NCBI RefSeq assembly: GCF_002379095.1
Contig: NZ_NBZV01000003.1
Location: 62,001-126,000, forward strand
DNA length: 64,000 bases
From: Polaromonas sp. AER18D-145
GTDB taxonomy: Bacteria > Pseudomonadota > Gammaproteobacteria > Burkholderiales > Burkholderiaceae_C
Direction: 5' to 3'
Shown here one piece after another: positions 5,449 to 20,114 of this stretch (its first letter is position 1; every line of letters starts with the position of its first letter). A program made the translations under genes and the position numbers. A model generated the notes under the pieces. The model saw only the letters and a list, made by a program, of their open reading frames with translations, did not search any database and was not told the DNA's origin.

Positions 5449-7032
5449 ATGGTTGCCCCCGGCGCGCCCCTCTACATCCGCATGCACGCGGACGACAACG
5501 TGGCCATCGTCGCCAACGACGGCGGCCTGGGCCCGGGCGCCACGTTTGCCGACGGCCTGGTGTTGCGTGAAAAGGTGCCGCAAGGGCACAAGGTGGCGTT
5601 GGTCGATCTGCCGCAGGGCAGTGCGGTGTTGCGTTACAAGGTGCCCATCGGCTTTGCGCTCAATGACATTCCCGCCGGCAGCTGGGTGCATGAGCGCCTG
5701 CTCGAGATGCCGGCCGCGCGCGGACTCGAAGGCTTGCCGATGGCGACCGTCAAGCCGCCGGCACTGGCGCCGCTGGAAGGCTACACCTTCGAGGGTTACC
5801 GCAATGCCGATGGTTCGGTCGGCACCCGCAACATCCTCGCCATCACCACCACCGTGCAGTGTGTGGCCGGCGTGGTGGACTTCGCGGTCAAACGCATCAA
5901 GGCCGAGCTGCTGCCGAAATTCCCCCACGTCGATGACGTGGTGGGCCTCGAACACACTTACGGCTGCGGTGTCGCCATCGACGCACCCGACGCCATCATC
6001 CCGATACGCACCTTGCGCAACATCAGCCTGAACCCCAACTTCGGCGGCGAGGTGATGGTGGTGAGCCTGGGCTGCGAGAAACTGCAGCCCGAGCGCCTGC
6101 TGCCGCCCGGCAGCATCCAGATCGTCGACGAGCGCAGCGTGGCCGATGTCGGCGTCAATGCCGAGGCACCGCTGGACGTGGTCTGCCTGCAGTCCGAGAA
6201 CCATGTGGGCTTCATGTCCATGATCGATTCCATCATGCAGGCCGCGGTGCTGCACCTGGAAAAGCTCAATGCGCGCCGCCGCGAGACCGTGCCCGCCAGC
6301 GAACTGGTGGTCGGTGTGCAGTGCGGCGGCAGCGACGCGTTTTCCGGCGTCACCGCGAATCCGGCGGTCGGCTTTTGCACCGACCTGCTGGTGCGCGCCG
6401 GCGCTTCCGTGATGTTTTCCGAAACCACCGAGGTGCGCGACGGCATCGACCAGCTGACCTCGCGCGCCAGCACACCGGAAGTCGCTGAAGCGATGATCCG
6501 CGAGATGGCCTGGTACGACGCCTACCTGCAAAAAGGCATGGTTGATCGCAGTGCCAACACCACGCCCGGCAACAAAAAGGGCGGCCTGTCCAACATTGTC
6601 GAAAAAGCCATGGGCTCCATCGTCAAGTCGGGCAGTGCATCCATCAGCGGCGTGCTCGCGCCCGGTGAAAAGCTCAAACAAAAGGGTTTGATCTACGCCG
6701 CCACGCCGGCCAGCGACTTCATCTGCGGCACGCTGCAGCTGGCCGCCGGCATGAATTTGCATGTGTTCACCACCGGCCGCGGCACGCCTTATGGCCTGGC
6801 CGAGTGCCCGGTCATCAAGGTCGCCACGCGCAGCGACCTGGCCAGGCGCTGGCACGACCTGATGGACGTCAACGCCGGCCGCATTGCCGACGGGCAGGCC
6901 CGCATCGAAGACGTCGGCTGGGAGCTGTTCCACCTGATGCTCGACGTCGCCAGCGGCCGCAAGAAAACCTGGGCCGAGCACTGGAAGCTGCACAACGCGC
7001 TGGTGCTGTTCAACCCGGCGCCCGTGACCTGA
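5449..7032 (+). CDS. garD: Galactarate dehydratase (UxaA/GarD family)
   Basis: Dehydrates galactarate to 5-keto-4-deoxyglucarate. The 527 aa align almost end to end with remembered E. coli GarD: an N-terminal SAF domain (HADDNVAIV...GHKVALVD) and the large catalytic domain with [53 protein letters not shown] and [11 protein letters not shown] 5440 is in frame, but AGGTGA at 5438-5443 is spaced for ATG 5449. The neighbours supply its substrate (Udh, lactonase) and use its product (GarL). The presence of GarD favours galacturonate as the main input; no GudD-type glucarate dehydratase is in the window. Confidence 0.95.
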
Positions 7033-7076
7033 TTCTCATACCCCTGTACCCCAACTCCTTCAAAATCCAACTCCTC

Positions 7077-7859
7077 ATGACCCAAGTTGTTCCCTATCAG
7101 TCCTTTCCCAACAGCTTCAAGCGCGACCTGCGGGCCGGCAAGAAGCTGATCGGCTGCTGGTCCTCGCTGTCCAACGCCATCACCACCGAGGTGCTGGGCG
7201 TGGCCGGTTTCGACTGGATCCTGCTCGACGGCGAACATTCGCCCAACGATGTCGCCACCTTCATCCCGCAGCTGATGGCGCTGAAAGACAGCGCCAGTGC
7301 ACCCGTGGTGCGGCCGTCCTCCAACAACGAGGTCGAGATCAAGCGCCTGCTCGACGCCGGCTTCTACAACTTCCTCGTGCCCTTTGTCGAAAGTGTGGAC
7401 GAGGCGAAACGCGCCGTGTCCGCCACCCGTTACCCGCCCCAGGGCATACGCGGCGTGTCGGTGTCCCAGCGCAGCAACCGCTACGGCACGGTGCCCGACT
7501 ACTTCAAGTCGATCAACGAGCACATCTGCGTGATGGTGCAGATCGAAAGCCGGGCCGGCGTGGCGGCGGCGCGCGACATTGCGGCGCTCGACGGCGTTGA
7601 CTGCATTTTTGTCGGCCCGTCAGATCTGGCCGCCGGCCTGGGCCACCTGGGCAATGCCGGCCACCCCGAGGTGCAGGCCGCCATTGCCGCGGTGTTTGCC
7701 GATGCGAAAGCCTGCGGCAAACCCACGGGCATCCTCGCGCCGGTGGATGCCGATGCACGCCGCTACATGGCCATGGGCGCCACCTTTGTGGCTGTCGGCA
7801 GCGACCTGGGCGTGTTCCGCTCGGCCACGCAGGTCCTGCGTGACAAGTACCTCGACTAG
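7077..7859 (+). CDS. garL: 2-dehydro-3-deoxyglucarate aldolase (HpcH/HpaI family)
   Basis: Cleaves the keto-deoxyaldarate made by GarD to pyruvate and tartronate semialdehyde. The 260 aa match GarL in length and motifs: LDGEHSPND (general-base His54), the metal ligand Glu in VQIES and Asp in [13 protein letters not shown], and [14 protein letters not shown]. It follows garD by 44 bases. The start at 7077 has no strong Shine-Dalgarno, but the residues upstream do not resemble the family. Confidence 0.94.
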
Positions 7860-8977: not shown

Positions 8978-9031
8978 GGCCACGGCATACGCACCGGGCA
9001 GTTTTCAACAAGATTTTTCAGGAGACAAGAC

Positions 9032-10006
9032 ATGACCATCAATCGCCGCAAGGTTCTTGCATCGTCCGTGGCCCTGGGCCTGGCCGCTTCCGGCGTCCAG
9101 GCGCAAACCCAGGCCTGGCCTGCCAAGCCGATCCGCATCATCGTGCCTTACCCGCCGGGCGGCTCGTCCGACATCATTGCCCGCGCCATCAGCCAGCCGC
9201 TGTCCGAGGCGCTCAAGCAGCCGGTGATTGTGGAAAACAAGCCGGGCGCCAATGGCAACCTCGGCGCCGACTTCGTCGCCAAGTCGGCCCCCGATGGTTA
9301 CACCCTGCTGCTGTGCGACACCGGTGCGCTGGCGATCAGTCCGTCGGTGTACACCCGGCTTCAGTTTGACCCAAGCAAGGACTTGCGCGGCGTGACCATG
9401 CTGGCCTATTCGCCGCACCTGCTGGTGGTGCACCCGTCGGTGCCTGCCAACAATCTGAAAGAACTGGTGGCGCTGTCGCAAAAGACGCAGCTCAACTTCG
9501 CCGTCACCGCCATGGGCAGTGCGCCGCACCTGGCCGGTGTCGCGGTCGAGCGAGCCAGCAATGCGAAGTGGCAGTACATCCCCTACAAGGGCGGCTCCCA
9601 GGCCATCACCGACACGGTAGGCGGCCAGACCCAGGTGTTGATGAACGGCATGCTGGCCACGTTGCCTTTTGTGCAGAACGGCCAGCTAAAGATACTCGGC
9701 GTGTCCAAGGCCACACGCATGCCGCTGATCGGCAACGTGCCGACGCTGCAGGAGCAGGGCATCACCGGTTTCGAGTCCGGCACCTGGCAGGGCATTCTGG
9801 TGGCGAAGAACACGCCGGCGGCCATCGTGACGCGGCTCAACACCGAACTGATCAAGGTCATCCGCAGCCCCGAGATCCGCGCCCGGCTCAGCGGGCAGGG
9901 CGCCGAGGTGGTGACCATGGCCTCCGCCGAGCAGGACCAGTTCTTCAACCAGGAGCGCAAGCGCTGGGCCGCGGTGGTGGCGCAGGCCGGCATCAAGCTG
10001 GATTGA
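9032..10006 (+). CDS. Bug-family (TctC-like) periplasmic solute receptor
   Basis: A 324-aa extracytoplasmic receptor of the tripartite tricarboxylate transporter type. Residues 1-25 form a signal peptide ending at VQAQ. The family signature IIVPYPPGGSSDIIAR and the ENKPGANGNLG loop follow. TctA/TctB permease genes are not nearby, which is usual for Comamonadaceae, where Bug genes are greatly amplified. The ligand is unknown. AGGAGACA precedes the ATG. It could belong to the garR transcript (54-base gap) or serve the next cluster. Confidence 0.9.
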   Translation: MTINRRKVLASSVALGLAASGVQAQTQAWPAKPIRIIVPYPPGGSSDIIARAISQPLSEALKQPVIVENKPGANGNLGADFVAKSAPDGYTLLLCDTGALAISPSVYTRLQFDPSKDLRGVTMLAYSPHLLVVHPSVPANNLKELVALSQKTQLNFAVTAMGSAPHLAGVAVERASNAKWQYIPYKGGSQAITDTVGGQTQVLMNGMLATLPFVQNGQLKILGVSKATRMPLIGNVPTLQEQGITGFESGTWQGILVAKNTPAAIVTRLNTELIKVIRSPEIRARLSGQGAEVVTMASAEQDQFFNQERKRWAAVVAQAGIKLD

Positions 10007-16392: not shown

Positions 16393-17031
16393 ATGCCCAT
16401 CCAGCTCTACACCTTCGACACCCCCAACGGCCGCAAGATCAGTGTTGCCCTCGAAGAAATGGGCCTGCCCTACGAGGTGCACGTGGTGGACATCACCCAG
16501 GGCGAGCAGACCGCGCCCGAGTTCCTGAAGATCAGCCCCAACAACAAGATCCCCGCCATCATCGACCCCGACGGCCCGGGCGGCCAACCGATCAGCGTCT
16601 TCGAGTCCGGCGCCATCCTGATCTACCTGGCCGAAAAGACCGGCACCTTCCTGCCCAAAGACCCACGCGCCCGCGTCGCCGCTTTGGAATGGCTGATGTT
16701 CCAGGTGGGCGGCTTCGGCCCCATGCCCGGCCAGGTGCACCACTTCGCCGGGCTGGAAAACGAAGCCGATCGCCGCTACGGCCTGGAGCGCTTCATGGCC
16801 GAAACCCGCCGCCTCTACGGCGTGATGGACCGCCGCCTGGCCGACCACACCTTCTTTGCAGGCAAAGAAATCTCAATAGCCGACTTCGCCATCGTCGGCT
16901 GGGCTTGGCGGCATGAGCGGCACAAGATTGACCTGGCGGATTTTCCGAATGTTCAGCGGTGGTACCGGGGGGTGATGGCGCGGGATGCGGTGATGCGGGG
17001 GTTTGCGGTGGGGTTGAAGCGATCGTCTTGA
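16393..17031 (+). CDS. yfcG: Glutathione S-transferase / disulfide-bond oxidoreductase, YfcG type
   Basis: 212 aa. The N-terminal thioredoxin-like GST domain (about 1-85) has TPNGRKISVALEE, ISPNNKIPAI and the glutathione gamma-Glu-binding FESGAILIYLAEK. The C-terminal helical domain has WLMFQVGGFGPMPGQVHHF, characteristic of the YfcG/Ure2-like group. These enzymes use glutathione for disulfide reduction. It is monocistronic. No clear Shine-Dalgarno precedes ATG 16393. Confidence 0.88.
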   Translation: MPIQLYTFDTPNGRKISVALEEMGLPYEVHVVDITQGEQTAPEFLKISPNNKIPAIIDPDGPGGQPISVFESGAILIYLAEKTGTFLPKDPRARVAALEWLMFQVGGFGPMPGQVHHFAGLENEADRRYGLERFMAETRRLYGVMDRRLADHTFFAGKEISIADFAIVGWAWRHERHKIDLADFPNVQRWYRGVMARDAVMRGFAVGLKRSS

Positions 17032-17045
17032 TGATGCGAGCCTGC

Positions 17046-17108
17046 TCAATAGCTATAAATTAGATAGCTACTTGCGTCCGCTGCATAAGGGATGTAGGCC
17101 GATTCTGT
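17046..17108 (+). repeat. 3'-end repeat, copy 3 (diverged)
   Basis: TTAGATAGCTACTTGCGTCC, then AAGGGATGTAGGCCGATTC. It follows the GST stop by 14 bases, same strand. It forms the left border of a low-GC segment; copy 4 forms the right border. Confidence 0.7.
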
Positions 17109-17377
17109 ATTCAGTTCCTTCTGAAAATATATTCATAGGTACTCATCGGGCGCTTGTGGCATGTCCTCTCATTGGGGGATGCCTCTTGGCGGGCTCGCAC
17201 CTAGAATCGACCAGAGGCAACACCAATGACGCCAGAGCAATAAGCGAGAGTCAGCTTAAACACGCTGTTGCAGCAAGCAGGCTGGCATGTCTGCGATATG
17301 GCTAACCTCAGGGGTGCATGGGCGCTACTGCGGGTAGAACTTAAAAAATAATTCGAAGTTTATAAAATGGAGGGTGA
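17109..17377. promoter_or_regulatory. Non-coding leader of the low-GC two-gene module
   Basis: About 270 bases without a credible gene. The last 40 bases are AT-rich, with TATAAA at 17361-17366 and a GGAGGG ribosome-binding site at 17369-17374 before ATG 17378. GC content falls from here until about 18760. No integrase, tRNA or direct-repeat attachment site was seen. Confidence 0.5.
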
Positions 17378-18280
17378 ATGACCAAACAAGCCAAGTATTA
17401 CCTCGGTAGGATTCGAAAACGTGGCGAACTTACTGCGGCAAAGATCGCCGAAGCTATGCGCGAACCTGAAACTATCGAATATCGTGGTACGCGCTACAGC
17501 TTCATTGACTTTCAGACGTTTGGCTCGCCCGGCAGTGAAACTGGGTTTTACGCGAAGATTGCGAAATACAGGCAATTGGGTTCAGTTGAGGTCGTTCATG
17601 AGGCCCAACATGCGTCTGCCGCTGCCGCAGTTCCAAACCTCATTGATGTCGCAAGCCCGTTTGTATATCTGCCAGGGTTTAGCGGCATTGCCTATCGGCA
17701 TATCTGGAATGCCTTTCCAAGTGAGCAGTTTGAAAAAGTATTTAAAGACTTGGTTGAGGCGAAGTACCAGAAGTTTTTTGTCGCATGCGACATTGAAGCA
17801 GTTGCTGATTTGCGAACTTTTGTAACTAGGCTTGCAGGTTTGGACAGGATTACGGAATTGCAGGCTACGGTGTTTCCACCGAACCCCCTATTTGGCCCTT
17901 GCTGGAAATCATTGAGTGAATATTTGCTGAAGCGAAAACTAAAAGAGGCCGTCATCAAAGAGGAGGGCATTCAAGGCATTGAAACAAAATTGCCAGAGAT
18001 CGCGGCTGCGTTTCTTTCGGATAAGCCAGCCGCAGAAATGGTTGCGCTAATGGAGCCATTGCTGGACGGCCTTGGTGATGCGGCCTTATTAATGGCTGCT
18101 GACGGCTATGGTCGTGCACGGGTGAAGGGTTCAGAGCGTGGTCGGGATGTCATCATCCGAACCAGCGAGAACCAAAAGAGTTTCTTGTTTGAAGGTGACC
18201 CACATCCATCGCGGCTTTTCGAGCAGGCTTTTGATGCATTTAGAAAAATCAACGACGAGCGAGGCCTTGAGCATCCATGA
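17378..18280 (+). CDS. Uncharacterised 300-aa protein, first gene of a low-GC two-gene module (possible phage-defence sensor)
   Basis: Not assigned to a named family. It is soluble, with no signal peptide or membrane segment. It begins KYYLGRIRKRGELTAAK and alternates predicted strands and helices, including a hydrophobic strand PFVYLPGFSGIAYRHIW near the middle and helix-rich ends. Codon usage is clearly AT-richer than the flanks, which suggests transfer. Its stop overlaps the next start (ATGA at 18277-18280), so the two are translationally coupled. The order and sizes (300-aa soluble, then 153-aa four-helix membrane protein) resemble lambda RexA (279 aa) and RexB (144 aa). A KwaB- or DUF4747-like protein is an alternative. 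Function is inference only. Confidence 0.6.
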   Translation: MTKQAKYYLGRIRKRGELTAAKIAEAMREPETIEYRGTRYSFIDFQTFGSPGSETGFYAKIAKYRQLGSVEVVHEAQHASAAAAVPNLIDVASPFVYLPGFSGIAYRHIWNAFPSEQFEKVFKDLVEAKYQKFFVACDIEAVADLRTFVTRLAGLDRITELQATVFPPNPLFGPCWKSLSEYLLKRKLKEAVIKEEGIQGIETKLPEIAAAFLSDKPAAEMVALMEPLLDGLGDAALLMAADGYGRARVKGSERGRDVIIRTSENQKSFLFEGDPHPSRLFEQAFDAFRKINDERGLEHP

Positions 18281-18738
18281 GACGCACTCTTGATTTTCTT
18301 CGGCTTGTATTTTTCTCGCCGGAACTGGTGCTAGCTCTCATACCTATTGTCATTTATATATATGTACCGGGTTGGGCGGACCTCTTGTTGAAGCCGATGG
18401 GTGATGGCGTAGGCTGGGGGCTGTCCGCTGCAGGCTTGTCTTTGGCAATGCTTGCTTTTAACTACAAAGAGGGTTTTGAGTTGCTGTCGTTAAGTGGCGG
18501 CAAGAAGGTGCTGATTGAATGGCCCGACTATCCACAACTTAAGATGCGGATTTTGGTTGCGTTCGTCTGGTGTTTGTTTGGGGCAGTTGCGTGTTTTGGC
18601 GCAACGTGGATGGTCGCAAAAAATTTACAACCGTTGCTGGGTATCACTTTGATGGTTAGCGGACTGCTGTCTGCCGCAGCTGCAACGGCAACTATTGCAC
18701 TGGCCAGATTTTCCCTCCGGGAAATATTAGGAGAGTGA
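18277..18738 (+). CDS. Small four-helix membrane protein, second gene of the low-GC module
   Basis: 153 aa with four predicted transmembrane segments at about 11-31, 45-62, 90-112 and 118-140. A polar loop (residues 63-89) with WPDYPQLKMR lies between the second and third. There is no recognisable catalytic motif. It overlaps the upstream gene by 4 bases and lies in the same low-GC block. The topology suits a membrane effector or pore partner of the upstream soluble protein, as RexB is for RexA. No sequence identity to RexB was established. Confidence 0.6.
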   Translation: MRRTLDFLRLVFFSPELVLALIPIVIYIYVPGWADLLLKPMGDGVGWGLSAAGLSLAMLAFNYKEGFELLSLSGGKKVLIEWPDYPQLKMRILVAFVWCLFGAVACFGATWMVAKNLQPLLGITLMVSGLLSAAAATATIALARFSLREILGE

Positions 18739-18768
18739 TGGATTCGCGCTGCCAGCGGGATAGATGTG

Positions 18769-18823
18769 CACTATAAAAATACTAGCTACTTGTGCAATAG
18801 GTATCGGGGATAGAACCCGATTC
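18769..18823 (+). repeat. 3'-end repeat, copy 4 (strongly diverged)
   Basis: CTATAAAAATACTAGCTACTTGTGC, then ATCGGGGATAGAACCCGATT keeps the spacing and ends of the family. It is 30 bases after the stop of the membrane-protein gene, same strand, and marks the right edge of the low-GC segment. Confidence 0.55.
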
Positions 18824-18839
18824 GACAGGGAACAGCCAC

Positions 18840-19634
18840 ATGAAAGAGCTACACGCACTGGTGGACTATGAGAACGTCCAGCCCACGCTCGAAGAGCTGG
18901 TCAAGCTCGCGCCTGACTTCACCGATGTCTGGCTATTCCATGGCCCGCATCAGATCAAGCAGGCGCAGCAGATGGCGACAGCCCATACCGGCGTGACGCT
19001 GGTGCCCCGCAGTGGTAAGGGCCGAAACGCGCTGGACTTTCACCTGACGTTTTATTTAGGCTATGTGGCGGCCAAGCACCCGGACGCGCACCTGGTGGTA
19101 GTGGCCAACGACAAGGGTTATGACCCCATGATTGCCCACGCCCGATTGCTGAACTTCACGGTGAAGCGCATGGGCCACAAAGCCAAGCCCTCCACAGTCG
19201 CCAAACCAGTGGTTGAAGCAGCGGTCAAGGCCGTGGCGCCAGCCGCAGCCAAAAAAACAGCTCCTGCCGCCAAGGCTGCGCCGGCAAAAAAAGCAGCTCC
19301 CGCCAAAGCACCTGTAGCGGCCAAAAAAGCTGCAGCAAAGAAAGCTCCAGTCAAGAAGGCGACCGCCAAAAAGTCCGCAAACCCCAAGCCGTCAGCAGCC
19401 AAAGTGGCTACCCAGTCCAAAGCTGCAATGTCGGCAGACGCCAAAGAGTTGACTCGCATCAAAAACGGCCTCGCCAAGATGGGCAACAAGGCCCCGCACA
19501 AGCTCAAGTCATTTTTGCGCCATGTAGGGGCGCAGTTGGGCAAAGGCAGTACAGCGGAGCAGATTGAGGCAATGGTGCAAAAGCTGGAGAAGGCGGGGGC
19601 GGTGCATATTGCTGGCGATTTGGTGCTGTACTGA
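18840..19634 (+). CDS. PIN-like (NYN-type) domain protein with histone H1-like Lys/Ala-rich linker
   Basis: 264 aa in three parts. Residues 1-110 form a PIN-like fold with acidic residues D9 (VDYENV), D66 (NALDFHL), D91 and D95 (ANDKGYD), as in metal-dependent RNases. Residues about 114-195 are Lys/Ala/Pro-rich repeats like histone H1 or AlgP and probably bind nucleic acid. Residues about 200-264 form a small helical domain. The role is likely RNA or DNA processing; the substrate is unknown. AGGGA lies upstream of ATG 18840. The gene has normal high GC, unlike the module before it. Confidence 0.75.
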   Translation: MKELHALVDYENVQPTLEELVKLAPDFTDVWLFHGPHQIKQAQQMATAHTGVTLVPRSGKGRNALDFHLTFYLGYVAAKHPDAHLVVVANDKGYDPMIAHARLLNFTVKRMGHKAKPSTVAKPVVEAAVKAVAPAAAKKTAPAAKAAPAKKAAPAKAPVAAKKAAAKKAPVKKATAKKSANPKPSAAKVATQSKAAMSADAKELTRIKNGLAKMGNKAPHKLKSFLRHVGAQLGKGSTAEQIEAMVQKLEKAGAVHIAGDLVLY

Positions 19635-19721
19635 ATTTGAAGTCGCAATTTGCGACCTTAAAGTTGTTGGCCGAGGTCATGCCCTTGGCATGAGCGCAAA
19701 ACAGTTCGATGAGGTGCAACC

Positions 19722-20114
19722 ATGAAAAAGACCGCAGAGACCCAGGGCGAATCCCCCGTCCGGCTGATCGACGCGAAGATCAAGAGCCTGGACGACTGGC
19801 GAGGCAAGACGCTCGCCCGTGTCCGCGCGCTCATCCAGCAGGCCGACCCGGCGGTGGTCGAGGAGTGGAAGTGGAGCCTTCCGGTGTGGTCGCACGACGG
19901 CATTCTCTGCACCGGCGAGACCTACAAAGACAAGGTGAAGCTGACTTTCCCCAAGGGCGCCTCGCTCAAGGACCCGGCCAAACTGTTCAATGCCAGCCTG
20001 GAAGGCAACACCCGGCGCGCCATTGATCTGGCGGAGGGCGATGCCATCGATGAAGCGGCCTTCAAGGCGCTGATACGCACCGCTGCGGCGCTGAACAAGT
20101 CGCCCGCCCGGTAG
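19722..20114 (+). CDS. DUF1801-domain protein
   Basis: 130 aa. The pattern RVRALIQQADPAVVEEWKWSLPVW, followed by a strand-rich core with KVKLTFPKGASL, is typical of the YdhG/DUF1801 family, a small alpha/beta fold of unknown biochemical role. GAGGTG sits 6-11 bases before ATG 19722. It appears monocistronic, and the next gene is convergent. Confidence 0.8.
   Translation: MKKTAETQGESPVRLIDAKIKSLDDWRGKTLARVRALIQQADPAVVEEWKWSLPVWSHDGILCTGETYKDKVKLTFPKGASLKDPAKLFNASLEGNTRRAIDLAEGDAIDEAAFKALIRTAAALNKSPAR

Follow-up and report, generated by a model that had tools for sequence, protein, structure and literature searches.

A low-GC gene pair specifying a DUF4747-like protein and a small membrane protein: a candidate RexAB-type defence module beside a restriction-gene remnant

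The gene pair A/B

The window, by which we mean the whole 64-kb stretch of DNA analysed here, contains two overlapping genes on its forward strand. Gene A (17378-18280) is a 300-aa ORF with an ATG start, the product of which appears to be a soluble DUF4747-like protein and is the predicted sensor of the pair. Gene B (18277-18738), also beginning with ATG, specifies a small membrane protein of 153 aa, the predicted membrane effector. The overlap is 4 bases in length, ATGA being common to both ORFs. The G+C content is 0.492 for A and 0.494 for B, compared with a mean of 0.643 (sd 0.034) for the window. When the 64 kb were scanned in 627 windows of 1361 bp at 100-bp steps, a G+C content as low as that of the pair was seen in only five, all of which start at 17001-17501, and the lowest value among the 586 scanning windows lying wholly outside 17024-19728 was 0.569. 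The low-GC stretch also takes in a remnant of an hsdR gene (17226-17318), overlooked in the earlier note, which is discussed below. Both ORFs, their overlap and their low G+C content (49% against the 64% mean) are located where the earlier note had put them.

Comparison with the homologs of Limnohabitans sp. 2KL-17 (L002) gave pN 0.104 and pS 0.852 for A, and pN 0.17 and pS 0.744 for B, values which point to purifying selection on both genes. Nor is this a chance pair of ORFs, since a homologous B directly follows A in L002, in an uncultured bin (L003), in Undibacterium macrobrachii (L004) and in L007.

Neither protein matches a Pfam or PADLOC model at E-values up to 1. PHROGs yielded matches at E 0.14 and 0.15 only, below the family cut-off. 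In NCBIfam neither reaches the cut-off, the one weak local match of A, with a urea-transporter binding-protein model, having E 0.004 and 16.4 bits where the cut-off is 333.9. Solved structures, searched by sequence and by profile, yielded chance-level matches only, and AlphaFold2 models built from the four close sequences (mean pLDDT 43 for A and 58 for B) were too poor for fold comparison. That the pair belongs to no recognised family, as first suggested from the sequence, was borne out in Pfam, NCBIfam, PHROGs and PADLOC, where both proteins stay below cut-off.

The hydropathy scan of B revealed three strong hydrophobic segments (residues 10-28, 92-110 and 125-143). The second supposed helix (about 44-62) peaks at 1.25 in the window copy, just below the cut-off of 1.3 for a hydrophobic segment, and exceeds 1.3 in the L004 copy; the four helices originally assigned to B are therefore likely, not certain. 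A loop of B carries a conserved WPxYPxxKxR stretch. B shares 48% identity with its L004 homolog and A 70%, A being the more conserved of the two. In A, PPNP and AADGYG are conserved stretches. Profile comparison found no homology between B and the membrane proteins which accompany DUF4747 proteins, and by Pfam B has no match to RexB (PF15968). The L004 homolog of B has a sub-cut-off match to DUF4064 (E 0.0026; Pfam), to which we give no weight.

Relatives, restriction neighbourhoods and the variable site

A peptide-pattern scan of a collection of genome contigs revealed the closest relatives of A in L002 (83% identity), L003 (82%) and L004 (70%). The identity is 38% for L007, 37% for L011 and, in a multiple alignment, 24% for the protein of a Picosynechococcus plasmid (L010), which matches 60% of the L007 A at 26% identity (E 6e-9). 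The distribution is patchy: A was found in 1/87 genomes of the genus (its own), in 2/399 of the family (its own and L005), in one further genome of 369 in the class (G740, the source of L007), in one further genome of 260 in the order (G1402, the source of L011) and in no further genome among 398 of the phylum. Genus searches around G740 (3 genomes) and G1402 (21 genomes) added nothing new, and G1453 is the L004 contig. No A-family relative was found by tblastn in phage records (queries A, L007 A and P0001) or in viral contigs (queries A3, A2, A4 and P0001); among plasmids, also searched by tblastn, the one from Picosynechococcus is the sole carrier. L005 (G191), with 28% identity over part of A (E 4.7e-4), was rejected as a relative; of its three ORFs of at least 200 aa none was A-like by eye.

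A small membrane protein is specified directly downstream of A in the window, L002, L003, L004, L007 and L010. That of L010 has 177 aa and is 14% identical to B in the alignment, homology to B not being found. In L011 the membrane protein is absent: the C-terminus of its A (8998-9885) diverges after about residue 270 and no B was found, so that this locus of G1402 is a broken pair, consisting of a truncated A without B. The loss looks as if a toxin had gone first, which is what one might see were A/B a toxin-antitoxin-like addiction pair, with B a membrane toxin held back by A; such a pair would have stabilised the restriction island and would persist through being hard to lose. The tight overlap, the low G+C content, the patchy distribution and the fact that both genes remained intact when their presumed host operon was lost would also fit. 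A 300-aa DUF4747-like protein is, however, unlike the usual antitoxins, and we regard an addiction pair as quite improbable. Moreover, those pairs with a weak DUF4747 match for which measurements are described are phage-defence systems (PMC6426596, PMC6426606).

In all three close relatives the pair lies directly after a type I hsdS gene, beginning 9 (L002), 11 (L003) and 123 bp (L004) behind it. HsdS has a Pfam match in each of them, the L003 copy being incomplete because the contig ends there; HsdR and HsdM were identified in L002 and L004, and HsdM in L003, where hsdR lies beyond the end of the contig. The operon of L002 reads hsdR-hsdS-A-B-dGTPase-236-aa gene-AlbA-type gene-Polbeta-type gene-hsdM, and that of L003 hsdS-A-B-dGTPase-236-aa gene-AlbA-type gene-DUF4357 gene-hsdM. 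Since hsdM is located further downstream, the pair stands between hsdS and hsdM in these two. In L004 the order is hsdR-hsdM-hsdS-A-B, followed by adenosine deaminase, Ham1, SIR2-type and PDC-S14 genes. The dGTPase beside the pair was identified by PADLOC in L002 and is 85% identical in L003; the 236-aa gene next to it in L002 has no Pfam match. The shared part of HsdR shows no more than 28% identity between L002 and L004, so that one type of pair accompanies two unlike restriction systems.

On the Picosynechococcus plasmid the pair is situated between dndE/dndD and a phosphorothioation-associated methyltransferase gene, and adjoins an HNH endonuclease gene. A type I restriction-modification or Dnd setting is thus found in 4/6 relatives. 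L007 and L011 showed no match to the Hsd query proteins, and the hsd-adjacent position was not seen in L007, L010 or L011. The gene neighbours, a survey of which was proposed in the earlier note, favour defence for four of the relatives, although defence neighbours can be hitch-hikers. The two loci at which no restriction operon was found near A, together with the weak urea-transporter match of A, are what might be put forward for an ordinary enzyme and transporter pair unrelated to defence; the setting of the other four, the restriction of A to a single genome of its genus, the failure of any family to exceed its cut-off and the relationship of A to DUF4747 make such a pair scarcely credible.

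Beside the window pair no hsdM or hsdS gene was found. Upstream of it, tblastn with the L002 HsdR located a decayed N-terminus of this type I restriction subunit (17226-17318, forward strand), which corresponds to the first 33 residues of the query at 61% identity (E 8.7e-6 in 64 kb) and has an in-frame stop at codon 6. A targeted local DNA alignment (17224-17325) scored 56, a value which 300 shuffles did not approach (at most 34); when the intergenic stretch was compared with the relatives by plain blastn, only short matches at chance level appeared, and the remnant was not among them. A search of the deletion junction for a tail of hsdS was negative: of 500 shuffled sequences, 447 scored as high against L002, 162 against L003 and 116 against L004. 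The genome possesses another type I system on contig C52, and A in one copy only. The remnant indicates that a type I restriction operon probably stood at this locus, the hsd genes of which have probably been lost apart from the N-terminal piece of hsdR. The accessory position within or directly behind hsd genes, seen in 3/3 close relatives, is represented in the window by this HsdR remnant only, and in A/B an accessory immune module has probably outlived its restriction operon.

The pair might itself be a relic with no function, carried along in the restriction operon until this was deleted and intact only because the deletion is recent. Not only does the HsdR remnant stand upstream, the promoter may be gone as well: since A begins 9-11 bp after hsdS in L002 and L003, the deletion may have removed the promoter of A, and a single promoter-like site (17341-17368) was detected upstream of the gene against a mean of 1.8 in shuffled sequences. 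Nevertheless, A and B have kept their reading frames open, in contrast to the drifted, stop-containing HsdR remnant, and a relic seems to us improbable. Synonymous sites are saturated or nearly so, and therefore the age of the restriction-gene loss cannot be judged from them. A relic overlaps with the explanation preferred below, since such a relic may once have served in defence, and the probabilities given to the several readings need not sum to one.

The pair was first described as lying between core genes. This applies to its left side, where 3/31 relatives searched have a match to the upstream GST gene at 84-90% identity, and not to the downstream PIN gene; the conserved right flank begins only at about 19728. 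The PIN7-domain protein (18840-19634, forward strand; PF18475, E 4e-26) is rare, occurring in 3/51 genomes of the genus and, among the 49 of good quality, in its own only (query: first 114 residues). It has a long lysine/alanine-rich middle and falls within a variable stretch (17024-19728) between the GST gene and the conserved right flank, which is likely an insertion hotspot. Two of three sibling genomes have other DNA with defence-type genes at this site: in L051 and L052 the match to the window, at 87-92% identity, ends at about 17023 and resumes at 19728 or 19748, and between these flanks lie 6.9 kb (L051) and 4.5 kb (L052) which include neither A, B nor the PIN gene. The L051 insert contains a helicase gene matching PDC-S41 (2.7e-17), AbiO and Nhi models, that of L052 PDC-S14 and HNH/type IV-like genes. 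The third sibling, L053 (G023), tells nothing about the site because synteny is lost after the GST gene. Both L051 and L052 have a second partial copy of the 3'-end of the GST gene (162 and 146 bp, 89%) next to the inserted DNA, which points to repeated insertion at that gene end.

Some further genes at these loci deserve mention. Candidate defence genes that recur both near the pair and at the variable site are PDC-S14 (L004, L052) and DUF4357 (L052, L003), with coordinates L004:13881-14750, L052:9042-9929 (-) and L003:6016-6906. The L051 insert also holds a soluble protein of 317 aa followed by a membrane protein of 169 aa (L051:5825-6778 and 6798-7307, forward strand; G+C content 0.45 and 0.40). 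They have no Pfam or PADLOC match, and hhalign gave no significant link with DUF4747 (2.4%, E 0.02); they may be another RexAB-like pair.

Relationship of A to DUF4747

A set of DUF4747 proteins was compiled from four genes found with the Pfam model PF15931 in 219 genomes of the phylum and two more found by tblastn on plasmids; the model found none in 143 genomes of the class. Bit scores of the members so found lie between 65 and 172. By hmmscan, the A proteins of the window, L004, L007, L011 and L010 have no match to PF15931 at E up to 1. Comparison of profiles gave a different result. A seven-row profile of A scored 48.4 (86.8%) against the four DUF4747 proteins by hhalign and 57.3 in the other direction, the controls reaching at most 23.3 in 200 column shuffles and 15.8 with the reversed profile. 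Against all six proteins the probability rose to 97.0% over 249 columns, with an E-value of 1e-10 which, like the others for A and DUF4747, refers to one pairwise comparison of small alignments. Left out of the rows were G191/L005, G1453 (the duplicate L004 contig), the L003 A beyond codon 267 (a frame break in the record) and, in the A6 alignment, the last 27 residues of the L011 A.

The scores depend on the sequences included. Without the cyanobacterial row the profile of A scored 48.7 (88%) against the six proteins (60 shuffles, at most 24.1), and the four close A sequences alone 35.5 (60 shuffles, at most 22.1). Against the four proteins the corresponding values were 28.8 (9%; 200 shuffles, maximum 26.7) and 29.4 (12%), and against a single DUF4747 protein 27% over 28 columns only. 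Because the scores fall with fewer rows, the link leans on bridging rows. By these profile comparisons A is distantly related to DUF4747 over nearly its whole length.

The genes of the DUF4747 set resemble A in their surroundings, a gene for a small membrane protein lying directly after the DUF4747 gene in 6/6 loci examined. At one of these (L023:282-2602, reverse strand) a CI-like repressor gene precedes the DUF4747 gene and the small membrane protein gene, which is the order of lambda cI-rexA-rexB. Lambda RexA and RexB themselves are another matter. They match PF15969 and PF15968 at 1e-97 and 8.5e-92, models to which neither A nor B has a match, and comparison of A with four RexA proteins, at an hhalign probability of 0.4%, likewise revealed no homology to lambda RexA. 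The profile check suggested in the earlier note has accordingly come out in favour of DUF4747, and sequence homology to RexA/RexB, which the note had listed for checking along with it, was not upheld for either protein. Neither lambda RexA nor the Butters and CarolAnn proteins match the DUF4747 profile, although weak DUF4747 matches are reported for them in the literature, and the term RexA-like as applied to A therefore rests on the layout, on DUF4747 and on the literature.

Proposed function and comparison with known systems

The DUF4747 homology of A, the restriction or Dnd setting of four relatives and a variable site occupied by defence-type genes argue that A/B is very probably a defence module of some kind, and the RexAB-like layout noted at the outset stands with them. 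The more specific explanation, which we favour with fair confidence, is that of a divergent RexAB-type (DUF4747-like) abortive-infection module, working as set out here and orphaned from its restriction operon. A, the soluble DUF4747-like partner, would recognise an infection signal which gets past restriction, candidates being a phage DNA-protein complex, DNA ends or a phage protein. Activated A would then contact the loop of B with the WPxYPxxKxR stretch, supposing that this loop is exposed on the appropriate side of the membrane, and switch B on. B would permeabilise or depolarise the inner membrane, such that growth would stop before phage release and protection would ensue. In the genome studied here the restriction genes would have been lost except for the start of hsdR, with A and B kept intact.

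A bolder version, which we put forward tentatively and hold to be rather less than an even bet, is that A/B is a second-line suicide module wired into restriction operons, which would fire if modification-based immunity were overwhelmed or gave rise to a DNA signal and which could survive deletion of the operon as a stand-alone pair at a hotspot. If the module works, restriction failure or restriction products as a trigger of abortive infection would be directly testable.

The roles of the two proteins could also be reversed, A being a DNA-binding or toxic effector and B anchoring, sensing for or restraining A at the membrane. There are precedents for this: in Butters the soluble protein is described as the effector and the membrane protein as restraining it (PMC12894663), and in Kiwa the membrane protein is reported to sense while KwaB binds DNA (PMC12904381). 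The greater conservation of A (70% against 48% identity to L004) points the same way. Kiwa has two components, one of them in the membrane, as has A/B. Its gene order (KwaA/KwaB) is presumably the reverse of that of A/B, and in PADLOC neither A nor B has a Kiwa match at E-values of 1 or less, so that homology to Kiwa is not supported; overall we consider reversed roles unlikely.

Lambda RexAB resembles A/B in the order of a soluble and then a membrane protein, in size (279 and 144 aa compared with 300 and 153 aa), and in having a small membrane protein with three or four helices. The two differ in that the close relatives of A/B are in restriction operons, with no cI gene noted beside them. 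RexA is reported to be a DNA-binding dimer with a fold related to that of RdgC (PMC11077077), and RexAB of P. putida is described as a further example (PMC12894663). In the literature cited here, pairs of the RexAB type come mainly from prophages.

The nearest counterparts are the DUF4747/CarolAnn-type pairs. Sbash gp30/31, CarolAnn gp44/43 and Butters gp30/31 are described as prophage pairs which block other phages, each with a soluble protein having a weak DUF4747 match and a four-helix membrane protein; for Sbash, channel activation with depolarisation has been proposed as the mode of action (PMC6426596, PMC6426606, PMC7542560). A/B shares with them a soluble protein of about 300 aa, which aligns over most of its length with DUF4747, and a small membrane protein directly after it. 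It differs in that A has no PF15931 match and B no homology to the DUF4747 partners. A 2026 paper gives DUF4747/CarolAnn operons in 17/443 capK-capS cases, and nearly 20% of capK-capS loci as flanked on one side by a restriction operon and on the other by an immune operon, for example CBASS or DUF4747/CarolAnn (PMC13373217). In contrast, the pair of the close relatives begins 9-123 bp after hsdS, which leaves no room for capK-capS between them.

As for type I restriction-modification operons with nested accessory genes, L002, L003 and L004 are alike in this respect, and the window keeps the HsdR N-terminus only. The initial proposal of an undescribed phage-defence system can thus be retained in part. 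Pairs of the DUF4747/CarolAnn type are already in print (PMC6426606, PMC6426596, PMC13373217), whereas the A/B sequence family holds as undescribed within the libraries searched. To the published type it contributes a sequence family that escapes the Pfam and PADLOC libraries, and a branch located directly behind hsdS and once inside a phosphorothioation cluster.
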